DNA of 64,000 nucleotides from an uncultured Ulvibacter sp. Lineage in GTDB: Bacteria; Bacteroidota; Bacteroidia; Flavobacteriales; Flavobacteriaceae. Location: NCBI GenBank assembly GCA_938083445.1, contig CALKCP010000010.1, positions 1 through 64,000 on the forward strand. The letters are read 5' to 3'. A program made the position numbers and the translations under genes. Below the pieces are notes generated by a model. It saw only the letters and a list, made by a program, of their open reading frames with translations, ran no database searches and was not told the origin of the DNA. Positions 1 to 12,444 of this stretch are shown here, piece after piece; the first letter of the stretch is position 1; the number at the start of each line of letters is the position of its first letter.

Positions 1-1122
1 TGTTCTTTCAGAACCTTCAAACTTGTCGAAATTCCATCGTGGAATTTTCACAATCACATAATCTAAAGTTGGCTCAAATAAGGCGGACGTAGATTTGGTA
101 ATCTGATTACTCAATTCATCTAGGTGGTAACCAATTGCCAACTTCGTTGCGATCTTAGCAATGGGATACCCCGTCGCCTTCGATGCTAATGCCGATGAGC
201 GAGAAACCCTGGGGTTTATCTCAATTGCGATAATATCTTCTTTTTCATCGGGACTCACGGCAAATTGAACATTACAACCACCCGCAAAGTCACCAATACT
301 GCGCATCATTTTTATTGCGAGATCACGCATTCTTTGATAACAAGAATCACTTAAAGTCATTGCAGGTGCCACTGTTATTGAATCTCCTGTATGGATACCC
401 ATTGGGTCCATATTTTCGATTGCACAAATTATAACTACATTGTCATTTCGATCTCTTAGTAATTCTAACTCGTATTCCTTCCACCCTAATAATGCTTTGT
501 CTATTAACACTTCATGAATGGGAGATGCTTCTAAACCAAATGTCAATAAATCATCAAATTCTTCTTCTGTATGAACAAAAGACGCCCCTGTACCACCTAA
601 AGTGAAGGAGGGTCGAATAACCAATGGAAACCCAAATTCCTGGGCTATTTCTTTCCCCTGAAGGTAGGAGTTTGCAATTTTAGCAGGAGCCACTGGGACT
701 CCGATTTTCATCATTAAATTTTTAAACTGATCACGATCCTCTGTAATGTTAATGGCTGCAATATCAACTCCAATAATATCAACGTTAAAGTCAGTCCAAA
801 TGCCTTTGTCATCTGCCTCAATACAAAGGTTTAGAGCTGTCTGCCCGCCCATTGTTGGTAATACCGCGTCAATTTGAGGATGATTCTTCAAAATTTTAAC
901 CAAAGACTTGGTTGTTAATGGCAATAAATAAACATGATCGGCCATAGAAGGGTCGGTCATGATCGTAGCTGGATTCGAGTTTATTAAAACTGTTTCTATA
1001 CCATCTTCACGCAAGGAACGTAATGATTGTGACCCAGCATAATCAAACTCACAGGCTTGACCAATAACTATTGGACCAGATCCAATAATTAAAACAGATT
1101 TAATAGCATTATTTTTTGGCAT
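1..1122 (-). CDS. carB: Carbamoyl-phosphate synthase large subunit, N-terminal part
   Basis: This encodes the first 374 residues of the large subunit of carbamoyl-phosphate synthase, the cytoplasmic enzyme that makes carbamoyl phosphate for pyrimidine and arginine synthesis. The reverse-strand frame is open from the ATG at 1122 to the window edge, so the 3-prime end lies outside. The N-terminus carries the family signature GSGPIVIGQACEFDYAG, followed by SNPATIMTDP and, near residue 87, PTMGGQTALN. These belong to the carboxyphosphate (first ATP-grasp) half. The full protein is usually about 950-1070 residues. It is the next reverse-strand gene after rpmH, with a strong terminator between them, so it probably has its own promoter. 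Identification is secure; completeness cannot be judged here. Confidence 0.95.
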   Translation of the reverse strand, partial: MPKNNAIKSVLIIGSGPIVIGQACEFDYAGSQSLRSLREDGIETVLINSNPATIMTDPSMADHVYLLPLTTKSLVKILKNHPQIDAVLPTMGGQTALNLCIEADDKGIWTDFNVDIIGVDIAAINITEDRDQFKNLMMKIGVPVAPAKIANSYLQGKEIAQEFGFPLVIRPSFTLGGTGASFVHTEEEFDDLLTFGLEASPIHEVLIDKALLGWKEYELELLRDRNDNVVIICAIENMDPMGIHTGDSITVAPAMTLSDSCYQRMRDLAIKMMRSIGDFAGGCNVQFAVSPDEKEDIIAIEINPRVSRSSALASKATGYPIAKIATKLAIGYHLDELSNQITKSTSALFEPTLDYVIVKIPRWNFDKFEGSERT

Positions 1123-8959: not shown

Positions 8960-9481
8960 ATGACATTTGAAGACATTTATAAAACTTATAAAGATTTAGT
9001 TTATAACCTTTCGTTGCAATACATTCAAAATATTGAGGAAGCTGAAGAAATTACCCAAGATGTATTTCTCACGGTCTACAAAAGCCTATACTCCTTCAAA
9101 AAAAAATCGTCTGTAAAAACATGGCTGTACCGCATTACAGTGAATAAATCTCTGGACTACATAAAGGCTAAACAGCGAGATAAACGACGAGCTATAACCA
9201 ATACATTAAGTTCGGAAGCATATGGCAATCACATTGAAATAGCTAATTTTAATCACCCAGGAGTTGCACTAGAACAAAAAGAAGCAATTGCTGCAATTTT
9301 CGCTACTCTTAATAAACTACCGGATCAACAGAAAACAGCAATCATTCTATTAAAAATTGAAGGTTTGTCGCAAGTTGAAGCCTCGGAGGTAATGAAAATT
9401 AGTCCAAAAGCTATAGAGTCCTTATTCCAAAGAGCTAAAAAGAATTTGAAGAATTTATTACACAAAAGCGAAGGAAAATGA
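8960..9481 (+). CDS. ECF-type RNA polymerase sigma factor
   Basis: A 173-residue sigma-70 family factor with only regions 2 and 4. Region 2 (about 5-75) includes EAEEITQDVFLTVYKSLYSF and the WLYRITVNKSLDY core of 2.3/2.4. Region 4 (about 118-170) has LPDQQKTAIILLKIEGLS and the helix-turn-helix with SPKAIESLFQRAKKNL. Followed after 22 nt by a one-helix membrane protein and then a periplasmic metal-sensor-like protein, this matches the order sigma, anti-sigma, sensor seen functionally in CnrH/CnrY/CnrX of Cupriavidus. I infer that it is held at the membrane until a periplasmic signal frees it. Target promoters are unknown. Confidence 0.92.
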   Translation: MTFEDIYKTYKDLVYNLSLQYIQNIEEAEEITQDVFLTVYKSLYSFKKKSSVKTWLYRITVNKSLDYIKAKQRDKRRAITNTLSSEAYGNHIEIANFNHPGVALEQKEAIAAIFATLNKLPDQQKTAIILLKIEGLSQVEASEVMKISPKAIESLFQRAKKNLKNLLHKSEGK

Positions 9482-9503
9482 ATAAAACGTCGTCTAAAAA
9501 GAT

Positions 9504-9752
9504 ATGAAAGAGCCTCTTAACTTATTCGAAAACATAAAAAAAGTAAAGGCTCCTGAGGAGCTTTACGTGAAAATAGAGTCTAGAGTAAAACAACAGCATG
9601 TTTCTTGGAGCCTAGCAACGGCCGTGGCAGCTGTATTTACTTGTCTTATAATTAGTGAGATATACCTTATTCAAACTACCTCGGACGCAAATAAACTAGC
9701 GACCCTTGAATTGGTTTTACCACAAAATAATAATCTACTATACAATGAATAA
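9504..9752 (+). CDS. Small one-helix membrane protein, candidate anti-sigma factor
   Basis: An 82-residue protein: about 30 charged residues on the cytoplasmic side (PEELYVKIESRVKQQ), one membrane helix (about residues 35-57), and a short periplasmic tail of about 25 residues. It has no zinc-binding HxxxCxxC motif. The size and layout fit minimal anti-sigma factors such as CnrY (about 95 residues). The 3-prime end overlaps the sensor gene by 8 nt, so the two are translationally coupled. I do not recognise a named family; the role is inferred from position between a sigma factor and a periplasmic sensor. Confidence 0.6.
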   Translation: MKEPLNLFENIKKVKAPEELYVKIESRVKQQHVSWSLATAVAAVFTCLIISEIYLIQTTSDANKLATLELVLPQNNNLLYNE

Positions 9753-10227
9753 GAAATACTTTTTAATTATCATTATAATAGGTCTATTACTCTCTAACCT
9801 GCTGCTAATAGGATTTATTAACTCTCAGAAAAAAGAAAAAAGACAGGGTCCAATACAGCCTAAAAACATAATCATTGATAGGCTTCATTTTAATGAAAAT
9901 CAGGTTTTAGCGTACGAACTTCTTGTTAAAAATCATTTGAATAAGGTGCAACCAAAAGATCGTGAAATCAGAGATGCCAAGAACGCACTATATCGGCAAC
10001 TTCTCTTCGTAAGTAATGAAGTGACTGTAGATTCGCTAACCACAAGAATTTCACTTATTCAAAAGCAAATTGAGCATATACACTATGATCACTTCAAGGA
10101 TATTAAAGAACTGTGCTGGCCTGAACAAGAAGAAGCATATGTTACACTTCTTGACGACTTAGCGCATATTTTCTCCATAAAAAGACCTAAAAGGAATCGA
10201 AAGAACGGTTTGAAGAGCCCTAAATAA
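9745..10227 (+). CDS. Periplasmic heavy-metal sensor (CnrX/CpxP/Spy-like)
   Basis: A 160-residue protein with an N-terminal membrane anchor (about 5-25) and a helical periplasmic domain ending in a Lys/Arg-rich tail. The Bacteroidota heavy-metal-sensor signature is present: HIHYDHFKDI (His111, His113, His116) followed by ELCWPEQEEAYVTLLDD (Cys124). Several His and one Cys could bind Cu, Ni or Zn, as His residues do in CnrX. The ATG at 9745 overlaps the preceding stop; a longer frame from a TTG at 9706 lacks a signal-like start and is rejected. The downstream MbnP gene starts 1 nt after the stop. The metal is not identifiable from sequence. Confidence 0.8.
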   Translation: MNKKYFLIIIIIGLLLSNLLLIGFINSQKKEKRQGPIQPKNIIIDRLHFNENQVLAYELLVKNHLNKVQPKDREIRDAKNALYRQLLFVSNEVTVDSLTTRISLIQKQIEHIHYDHFKDIKELCWPEQEEAYVTLLDDLAHIFSIKRPKRNRKNGLKSPK

Positions 10228-10228
10228 T

Positions 10229-10921
10229 ATGAAACATTGTTGTATTTTAATTTTATTTCTGATCTCTTTTACTTCTCAGTCTCAAAACGATCCTGAACTA
10301 ATTCAAATAAACCCCTTGTTTAATAATGAACATCTCGAGTTAAATAAGCCATATTTTTTAGCTTCAGTCAACGACAGTATTAAAATAGAAACCTTAAAGT
10401 TTTTTATTTCAAATGTGCAATTTTTTCAGGATGAGAAACTGATTGATTCGCTTTCTAAAAAACAGCACTTGATCGATTTAGAAAAAGAAAAGTCATTGCA
10501 AATAGAGATGAGCAGGAGCAACAGATTAAGGTATAATATGATTAAATTTAGCGTTGGCATTGATAGTATTACGAATGTTTCTGGAGTTTTTGGAGGTGAC
10601 TTAGACCCAACAAACGGTATGTATTGGACTTGGCAAAGCGGTTATGTCAATTTTAAATTAGAAGGCAAATCGGAGGCTTGTAGCGCTCGGAATAATTTTT
10701 TTCAATATCATCTTGGAGGGTATCAGGCTCCATACAAAACAATTAGCAACATAGAATTAAAGGTCTCCCAACAAAATTTAATAGTCATTAATTTTAAGAT
10801 TGATGCTTTTTTAAATGGCATTGATTTGGCAAAATCACATAGTGTCATGAGTCCAAACGACACTGCAGTTGCACTTTCTAAAAGATTTCAAAAAATCATA
10901 ACCATAGGAGATGAAAAATAG
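10229..10921 (+). CDS. MbnP-family copper-associated periplasmic protein
   Basis: A 230-residue secreted protein with signal peptide (about 1-18). The MbnP family signature FGGDLDPTNGMYWTWQSGYVNF is present around residues 121-142, with Trp133 and Trp135. In Methylosinus trichosporium OB3b a tryptophan of MbnP is converted to kynurenine by the partner di-heme enzyme MbnH, and the modified protein binds copper. This gene lies directly between the metal sensor (1-nt gap) and the MbnH-like gene (11-nt overlap). Which Trp would be modified cannot be told from sequence alone. No methanobactin precursor gene is visible nearby, so the pair here works outside a methanobactin operon. Confidence 0.85.
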   Translation: MKHCCILILFLISFTSQSQNDPELIQINPLFNNEHLELNKPYFLASVNDSIKIETLKFFISNVQFFQDEKLIDSLSKKQHLIDLEKEKSLQIEMSRSNRLRYNMIKFSVGIDSITNVSGVFGGDLDPTNGMYWTWQSGYVNFKLEGKSEACSARNNFFQYHLGGYQAPYKTISNIELKVSQQNLIVINFKIDAFLNGIDLAKSHSVMSPNDTAVALSKRFQKIITIGDEK

Positions 10922-11942
10922 CCGTTCTTATGTAATTCTTGTAGTTCTCATCGCAACGGCTTTTGGATTCTCAAAATATCAAGACCTTCAGTACCCCGAT
11001 TATTTTCCTGTTCCTGAATATAATTTTGATAACAACCGTCTTTCCGACGAAGGAATAGAACTCGGAAGAAATCTATTTTATGATCCTATTTTATCAAGAG
11101 ACAATAGCGTTTCATGTGCATCCTGCCACTCGCCATATAATGCTTTCGCTCATACCGATCACGATTTAAGTCATGGTATTGATGATCAAATTGGGACCCG
11201 GAATGCTCCTGCACTGTTTAACTTAGCTTGGCAAAAGTCTTTTATGTGGGATGGCGCAATTAATCATCTGGATATGCAAGCCTTAGCCCCTATTAGCCAC
11301 TCAGGTGAAATGGATGAAAGCATACAAAATGTAGTGTTAAAACTGCAACAAAAAGAACGGTACTTACATTTGTTTAAAGAGGCATTTGGCGATACACCTA
11401 TTAGCGGTGCACATGTTTTAAAAGCCTTATCACAATTTCAATTGACTCTTATTTCAGCTAATTCAAAGTACGATAAGGTAAAGCATGGCAGTGATCTTTT
11501 CAATGAGCAGGAAAACAAGGGCTACGCTCTGTTTAAAGCAAACTGTAACTCCTGTCATACCGAACCCCTTTTTTCAAATTATAGTTTTGCCAACAACGGA
11601 CTTATCGTGGACACTACTTTAAATGACTTCGGAAAGTATGCAATAACCAAACAAAGCAAGGACAGCCTCTTATTTAAAGTTCCAAGCTTACGGAATTTGA
11701 AGTTTTCAAGCCCGTATATGCACGATGGAAGGTTTCGGAGGTTGAATGAGGTATTGAATCATTATACTTCAGAAATAATAAACACTGAAACATTAGACCC
11801 TCAATTTGAACAATCGATTGCCTTATCTTCAAATGACAAGGCAGACCTGATGGCTTTTTTACAGACACTCAACGATACTGACTTTGTTTTTGATCCAAAA
11901 CATCAATTTCCTTTAAATAAATCGAAAAACCCGAAAGAATAA
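10911..11942 (+). CDS. Di-heme cytochrome-c-peroxidase-like enzyme (MbnH type)
   Basis: A 343-residue periplasmic protein of the bacterial di-heme peroxidase/MauG superfamily. Two heme-c motifs are present: CASCH (Cys69, Cys72, His73) and CNSCH (Cys212, Cys215, His216). FMWDGAINHLDMQALAPI and SPYMHDGRFRRLNEVLNHY are also typical of the family. An N-terminal hydrophobic stretch (about 7-20) is the export signal. Placement overlapping an MbnP gene identifies it as the MbnH-type member, which forms a bis-Fe(IV)-like state and oxidises a Trp of MbnP, rather than a detoxifying peroxidase. It needs a cytochrome c maturation system encoded elsewhere. It ends 52 nt before the HxlR gene. Confidence 0.88.
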   Translation: MKNSRSYVILVVLIATAFGFSKYQDLQYPDYFPVPEYNFDNNRLSDEGIELGRNLFYDPILSRDNSVSCASCHSPYNAFAHTDHDLSHGIDDQIGTRNAPALFNLAWQKSFMWDGAINHLDMQALAPISHSGEMDESIQNVVLKLQQKERYLHLFKEAFGDTPISGAHVLKALSQFQLTLISANSKYDKVKHGSDLFNEQENKGYALFKANCNSCHTEPLFSNYSFANNGLIVDTTLNDFGKYAITKQSKDSLLFKVPSLRNLKFSSPYMHDGRFRRLNEVLNHYTSEIINTETLDPQFEQSIALSSNDKADLMAFLQTLNDTDFVFDPKHQFPLNKSKNPKE

Positions 11943-11994
11943 AAAAATAGTGTCGTCTAATACTACAAACCTATAATGATTAAAAAATCTATAA

Positions 11995-12444
11995 ATGTTG
12001 AGTGAAAAACCAAAACATACCTGTGCAATTGCCAAATCGATTAATGTTCTAGGTGATAAATGGTCGCTCCTAATATTGAGGGATGTCATTTGCCATAAAA
12101 AGGCAAGATTTAAGGAGTTCAGAAATTCGAAAGAAAAAATTGCAACTAATATTCTAACAAATAGGCTCTCTTCTCTCACGGAAGCCGGACTTATTAGAAA
12201 GTTAGACCCGTCAGGAACAAAAAAAAGCACTCGTTATATAGCTACTGATAAAGGAATTGAAACTCTGCCTATAATCGTTAAACTGTTTCTCTTCTCTATA
12301 GAGTCAATCGATGAACAATTTTTGAATGAGTCTCAAATAAATATCAAACATCAGATTACCTCCGACTCTGCTCTATTTGAAGAAAATAGAAAGAAAGAGT
12401 ATCTAGCCTTTCGAGGCGAGTTAGAAAAGGGACTAACTAAATAA
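11995..12444 (+). CDS. HxlR-family winged-helix regulator
   Basis: A 149-residue transcription factor. TCAIAKSINVLGDKWSLLILRDV is the HxlR hallmark region (residues 9-31), followed by RFKEFRNSKEKIATNILTNRL (recognition helix) and a wing around KLDPSGTKKSTRY. Cys10 and Cys33 are present. In redox-sensing members of this family (for example YodB and HypR) an N-terminal cysteine senses quinones, diamide or hypochlorite. The C-terminal 40 residues after the winged helix are an extension. It lies 52 nt after the MbnH gene on the same strand, but a link to that operon is only positional. The target is unknown. Confidence 0.87.
   Translation: MLSEKPKHTCAIAKSINVLGDKWSLLILRDVICHKKARFKEFRNSKEKIATNILTNRLSSLTEAGLIRKLDPSGTKKSTRYIATDKGIETLPIIVKLFLFSIESIDEQFLNESQINIKHQITSDSALFEENRKKEYLAFRGELEKGLTK

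Follow-up and report, generated by a model that had tools for sequence, protein, structure and literature searches.

A conserved MbnP-MbnH locus with a CnrX-like sigma-factor switch: a candidate metal-responsive regulon in Bacteroidota

A 64,000-nt stretch of the genome of an uncultured Ulvibacter sp. (contig CALKCP010000010.1; hereafter the window) carries, at positions 8960-11942, five tightly packed genes on one strand, encoding an extracytoplasmic function (ECF) sigma factor, a one-helix protein, a membrane-anchored sensor, MbnP and MbnH. This locus is a real, conserved and well-bounded regulatory unit. Our preferred reading, held with moderate confidence, is that it forms a sigma regulon responsive to a periplasmic metal, most likely copper, in which a CnrX-like switch is joined to MbnP, MbnH and a further protein, YHYH. 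The evidence comes from the recurrence of the gene order, from the fold and conserved residues of the sensor, and from a promoter-like element, GAAGGA-N15-CGTCTAA, first seen upstream of YHYH genes and at the junctions between sigma and anti-sigma genes.

Gene order and effector families

The first gene (8960..9481; like all features below, on the + strand) encodes an ECF sigma factor of 173 residues, with regions 2 and 4 both above cut-off (PF04542 and PF08281) and a TIGR02937 score of 97.5 bits against a cut-off of 42.9. After a 22-nt gap follows the gene for a putative anti-sigma factor (9504..9752; 82 residues, one membrane helix), assigned from its position and from an alignment of 27 rows. 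It overlaps by 8 nt the gene for the CnrX-like membrane-anchored sensor (9745..10227; 160 residues from the ATG at 9745), in which H64, H116 and C124 are conserved. Neither the anti-sigma factor nor the sensor matches a family above cut-off in Pfam or NCBIfam. A single nucleotide separates the sensor gene from that of MbnP (10229..10921; 230 residues), which scores 137.9 bits against PF20243 (cut-off 27) and overlaps by 11 nt the gene for the MbnH-type di-heme protein (10911..11942; 343 residues; PF03150, 183.1 bits, cut-off 25.6). An earlier sequence-only reading of the window had listed these coordinates and overlaps together with the motifs CASCH and CNSCH of MbnH, W133/W135 of MbnP and H111, H113, H116 and C124 of the sensor, and all were found as it gave them.

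That reading had staked its proposal on the gene order being conserved in relatives, and the order does recur. A scan of a genome collection with MbnP returned 64 loci, all titled within Bacteroidota, whose gene partners were called with profiles built for this analysis; the sigma, anti-sigma and sensor genes lie directly ahead of MbnP-MbnH in 23 of 60 testable loci, the other four being too short upstream. Recurrence of the same order across Bacteroidota argues for an arrangement beyond chance. Starting from the sensor instead, a profile scan gave matches in 48 of the 247 genomes of the class. Among the best 30 sensor loci, sigma and anti-sigma genes precede the sensor in 29 and MbnP follows it directly in 19 (window included); in four further loci (L160, L162, L167 and L174) a YHYH gene takes the place of MbnP. 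The sigma factors of MbnP-linked trios make up one supported group (96/99), which also includes one trio without MbnP. A scan of 72,556 plasmid records for the sensor gave no match. Repeat loci (L001, L002, L010, L011, L033-L038 and L103) were excluded from one or more counts. A non-exhaustive search of the open-licence literature brought up no publication dealing with this operon or linking YHYH to MbnP.

Behind MbnH, 51 of 56 testable loci have a YHYH gene (PF14240) at a distance of up to 3.2 kb, mostly as the direct neighbour, and five have none; eight further loci were not assessable. The proposal of a five-gene unit thus holds for the five genes and their order but not for its size, as YHYH is usually present as a sixth member. 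All five YHYH proteins of this length that were scanned carry a type IX secretion tail. An AlphaFold2 model of YHYH, with a mean predicted local distance difference test (pLDDT) score of 36, was unusable.

In MbnP, residues M131, W133, W135, H161 and M207 are kept in 25 of 25 aligned rows, so the WxW motif is present throughout; the protein falls under the TIGR04052 equivalog cut-off (40.8 versus 140 bits), and neither its single sequence nor its profile matched a PDB sequence. MbnH likewise scores below the TIGR04039 cut-off (208.8 versus 362.85 bits), yet this is its best NCBIfam match; it contains two CxxCH haem motifs and matches PDB entry 6e1c over residues 24-334. From their sequences, MbnP is a member of Pfam family PF20243 and MbnH of the CCP/MauG superfamily, and the proposed pairing of a WxW-bearing MbnP with an adjoining di-heme MbnH is borne out. 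In Methylosinus, MbnH reportedly converts the first Trp of WxW to kynurenine, beside which Cu(I) is said to be bound with His and Met. As the sequence-only reading had remarked, no methanobactin gene is visible: PF05114 (the methanobactin-type MbnB family) had no match in this genome, which spans 2.3 Mb in 38 contigs and is 93.8% complete. A second MbnP-MbnH pair of the same genome, on contig C3 (L104:4797-12501), has an MbnP without WxW and sits behind a PKD-free row of type IX secretion system-type genes for three similar proteins of 469-477 residues and one of 474 residues.

The sensor and the inducing metal

The AlphaFold2 model of the sensor (pLDDT 88) consists of a membrane helix and a periplasmic four-helix hairpin, as the CnrX family requires. 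CnrX structures top both fold searches at Z 10.3-11.4, although for helical bundles a match of Z 10-11 counts for less, since values up to about 13 can reflect mere arrangement; nor did Foldseek return any match to the sensor with E < 0.001, and both points tell against a CnrX-like assignment. Over residues 39..142 the sensor aligns nearly without gaps to CnrX 42..145, H116 falling at CnrX position 119. The CnrX ligand set comprises His42, His46, Glu63, His119 and Met123, and only the one at His119 is kept, by H116. Ile120 occupies the place of Met123, which is needed for CnrX signalling according to an excerpt of PMC7689651. This speaks against a plain copy of CnrX, and as a tested feature of CnrX is lacking, we do not file the sensor as CnrX. 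The description of the protein as CnrX/CpxP-like therefore stands for its best fold match, CnrX, but not in the sense of a CnrX with its ligands retained.

Conservation points to a different set of metal residues. All 22 MbnP-linked sensors have H64 and H116, as do 29 of 29 sensors in a second comparison, and C124 is found in 20 of the 22. By contrast, H111 occurs in 5 and H113 in 16 of the 22 (counted by eye). The earlier proposal of His111, His113, His116 and Cys124 is thus upheld for H116 and C124 but not for the two variable histidines, and it had left out the conserved H64. H64, H116 and C124 are likely metal residues on this evidence, and they could form one site.

CnrY-type (class II) anti-sigma factors bind their ECF sigma factor through a short N-terminal part. 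At the opposite end of the anti-sigma factor, a C-terminal N-x-LY tail is conserved (N in 22, L in 19 and Y in 26 of 27 rows, after exclusion of matches below 30 bits, among them those of L106, L107 and L109), and this tail could be a handle for the sensor. By analogy, the switch may work as CnrYXH does.

It is possible, though unlikely, that the stimulus is a different metal or, in the manner of Spy and CpxP, a stress of the envelope, and that MbnP and MbnH merely respond to what the trio detects. The best match of the sensor profile among PDB sequences is Spy (E 0.013 and 0.0059, compared with about 0.8 for NccX), Spy and CpxP structures appear in the fold lists, and some trios adjoin EF-hand, CotH and YHYH genes but have no MbnP. 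Yet both fold searches place CnrX entries ahead of Spy and CpxP, the His and Cys residues are conserved as described, and 19 of the best 30 sensor loci have MbnP right next to the sensor gene. One trio without MbnP, in genome G022 (L106:5133-10067), has EF-hand, CotH-like, short YHYH and MORN-like genes behind it; judging from this combination, the association of such switches with YHYH may be the older one.

Copper is the likely inducing metal under our preferred reading. Multicopper oxidases with secretion tails are encoded between MbnH and YHYH in loci L077 and L079 (a gene for 576 residues sits at this place in L080 and L081), and an SCO1 gene lies near the MbnP-MbnH-YHYH locus of genome G003 (L110). 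A response of opposite sign, in which the metal-free sensor would free the sigma factor and the operon would answer copper shortage with MbnP-MbnH and YHYH as scavengers, is about as improbable as a response to another stimulus. CorA, a distant kynurenine-copper protein, is copper-repressible and has a suggested role in copper acquisition (PMC3912023, in excerpt), and a second type of exported gene, YHYH, would suit capture at the surface. Against this, in CnrYXH it is metal bound by CnrX that releases the sigma factor, as passages of PMC7689651 describe, and the multicopper oxidase neighbours suit copper stress at least equally well.

The promoter-like element and its downstream genes

An exact copy of GAAGGA-N15-CGTCTAA lies at 9470..9497, its -35-like hexamer contained in the last codons of the sigma gene. 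We searched 57 sigma/anti-sigma junctions, comprising a first set of 30 and a class set of 27 out of 30 loci; L146 (the window itself), L150 (a repeat of G040) and L153 (without a sigma gene) were left out. The two sets overlap, since L147 and L055 show one and the same site, and the profile that retrieved the class set had been made from the first set, where the element was originally spotted. The element is exact in 19 junctions and present with at most one mismatch in 40 and at most two in 49, whereas 200 dinucleotide shuffles, scored at the first two levels, gave no exact match and at most one within one mismatch. Other spacings from 8 to 23 yielded one-mismatch matches in 0 of 30 and at most 2 of 27 junctions, and two-mismatch matches in at most 3 of 30 and 10 of 27. 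With its fixed spacing and CGTC-type -10 box, the element fits an ECF promoter.

The same sequence marks genes elsewhere. Fifteen other genomes hold 18 exact sites, compared with 2 for the reversed pattern; they precede or mark 6 junctions, 5 YHYH genes, 2 PqqD genes and one each of CotH, MauG-type, VTC, urea-transporter/M23 and 145-residue genes. Three of these genomes (G003, G160 and G165) have neither a sensor match nor a site; in the remaining 12, all with a sensor, an exact site occurs in 8. In the genome of the window, AAGGA-N15-CGTCTAA is found exactly three times: at the junction, ahead of YHYH and inside a 175-codon pyrophosphatase-like frame, the last of which we take as chance and reject as a regulon member. 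No site with up to one mismatch per half was found near the other eight sigma-region-2 genes of this genome. Trios of another sigma clade (G020, G022 and G032) carry at the junction, by eye, a related element, N15-CATCTAA preceded by GCAAGT or in one case ACAAGT. It is very unlikely that the element is no promoter of this sigma factor and stems from a constraint, coding or otherwise, on the last part of the sigma gene: its first hexamer does lie wholly inside the sigma open reading frame (ORF) in 40 of the 49 junctions, but YHYH and unlinked CotH, VTC and PqqD genes are preceded by it too, again with 15 nt between the halves, and the other clade has its variant at the same place in three loci.

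A common element ahead of the sigma gene was considered and rejected, as a site there is seen only in L050 (1 of 28 in the first set) and in L159 and L170 of the class set. Owing to this rarity, the sigma gene is usually predicted not to belong to its own regulon; probable targets of the sigma factor are the genes for anti-sigma factor, sensor, MbnP, MbnH and YHYH, but usually not its own gene. Where the sequence-only reading had put the sigma gene in one operon with the effectors, adjacency is upheld, but the element stands behind the sigma gene and probably leaves it outside the induced part.

Within the window, CGTCTAA ends 6 nt ahead of the anti-sigma start codon (9491-9503), a distance also seen in 6 of 15 other loci with the site; the anti-sigma mRNA may thus be leaderless or nearly so.

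A second copy with one mismatch, GAAAGA-N15-CGTCTAA, lies at 11933..11960. YHYH is absent behind MbnH here, and the YHYH gene of this genome is on contig C11. A stretch of 307 bp (11686..11992), comprising the MbnH tail, the element and the first bases of the lost YHYH gene, is duplicated there ahead of YHYH, and by a count made by eye the two copies agree in 287 of 307 columns: C11 has a broken MbnH tail before its YHYH gene, and the window copy runs on for only a few bases beyond the start of the lost YHYH gene. Moreover, in G001, G003 and G015 only one gene, of about 100 residues, stands between the solute-binding gene, which in the window lies on the left of the operon, and the nucleotidyltransferase gene, which on C11 is a neighbour of YHYH (the contig of G002 ends too early for this comparison). 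From the duplicate and this neighbour arrangement, it is most likely that a six-gene operon was broken up by a rearrangement, with YHYH retaining its own element; the 20 differences between the copies disfavour an assembly error.

Further genes stand behind such sites. Since the departure of YHYH, the near-intact window copy is placed 34 nt ahead of an HxlR-type regulator gene (11933-12444), which may have joined the regulon. An apparently intergenic one-mismatch site (L128, G000:C30:26840-26866) lies 61 nt ahead of a 479-residue ORF, a possible further member. In two genomes (L208:2461-9631 and L207), an exact element precedes a cluster of PqqD, ATP-grasp, pyridoxal phosphate (PLP)-decarboxylase, urea-transporter-M23 and tetratricopeptide repeat (TPR) genes, and in a third (L212:3688-6043) it stands ahead of a similar urea-transporter-like gene with TPR genes; the PqqD-type cluster may make a small molecule.

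Proposed mechanism, known systems and significance

In the mechanism that we infer, the 82-residue membrane protein would at rest hold the ECF sigma factor at the membrane, its periplasmic tail touching the CnrX-like sensor. Metal binding around His64, His116 and Cys124 would alter the sensor, the anti-sigma factor would release the sigma factor, and the latter would direct RNA polymerase to GAAGGA-N15-CGTCTAA promoters. The promoter behind the sigma gene would drive anti-sigma factor, sensor, MbnP and MbnH, and a second one YHYH on C11, such that the switch would raise its own inhibitor and sensor, a negative feedback, together with the effectors. Oxidation by MbnH would turn the first Trp of the WxW motif of MbnP into kynurenine, giving a Cu(I) site, and YHYH would go to the surface by way of its type IX secretion tail.

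Several findings weigh against this metal-responsive regulon. In 37 of the 60 testable loci the trio is not directly ahead of MbnP (in L044, one of these, it is present, with a CotH gene between trio and MbnP), and the three same-genus genomes examined have no sensor match, so the distribution is patchy. The element is more than two mismatches off in 8 of 57 junctions, and 4 of the 12 sensor-bearing genomes lack an exact site. When two mismatches are allowed, the genome of the window is not enriched (172 sites versus 330 for the reversed pattern). L050, L159 and L170 carry the site with one or two mismatches before the sigma gene, which points to self-induction in some loci. Finally, the copper-related neighbours named above are few.

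The closest known system is CnrH-CnrY-CnrX of Cupriavidus metallidurans, in which an ECF sigma factor, a short one-helix anti-sigma factor and a membrane-anchored four-helix sensor, the best fold match here, are likewise encoded together. The present locus differs in gene order, in having H64/H116/C124 instead of the CnrX ligands and no equivalent of Met123, in its predicted targets (MbnP, MbnH and YHYH, not an efflux pump) and in its Bacteroidota host. In Bacteroidota, only 6% of ECF sigma factors lie near a class I anti-sigma factor, according to an excerpt of PMC7406223. Methanobactin operons share the adjacent MbnP and di-heme MbnH genes, and MbnP-MbnH pairs of Methylosinus can also adjoin sigma/anti-sigma-type (MbnI/MbnR) genes (PMC3621798, in part). 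In contrast to these operons, neither TonB-coupled FecIR-type regulation nor a PF05114 gene was found in this genome, MbnP and MbnH score under the NCBIfam cut-offs, and there is a YHYH partner. CorA/CorB and MopE of methanotrophs share a kynurenine-bearing copper protein beside a di-heme peroxidase gene (excerpts of PMC3912023 and PMC3621798); according to the same excerpt of the latter source, MbnP shows no marked sequence similarity to MopE or CorA. The SM6 ECF-type promoters of Flavobacterium psychrophilum have a CGT box, and an ECF sigma/anti-sigma operon is among the SM6 genes; the differences are that some of these genes encode components of type IX secretion and that low nutrients induce the SM6 genes (both from passages of PMC9723704).

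A wider view is more tentative, and we think it doubtful as a whole: a Bacteroidota copper regulon on one promoter type, in which a CnrX-like His/His/Cys switch would induce its own inhibitor, a kynurenine-copper protein, a di-heme maturase, secreted YHYH, CotH and multicopper oxidase and, in some species, the PqqD/ATP-grasp/PLP-decarboxylase/urea-transporter-M23 cluster, which would perhaps make a copper-handling molecule. The element itself predicts regulon members in uncultured Bacteroidota. Here, outside methanotrophs, the MbnP-MbnH pair is coupled to a switch of its own, to a well-defined promoter-like sequence and to YHYH as a constant partner, which opens three points to direct testing: the metal that induces, the extent of the regulon and the formation of kynurenine.

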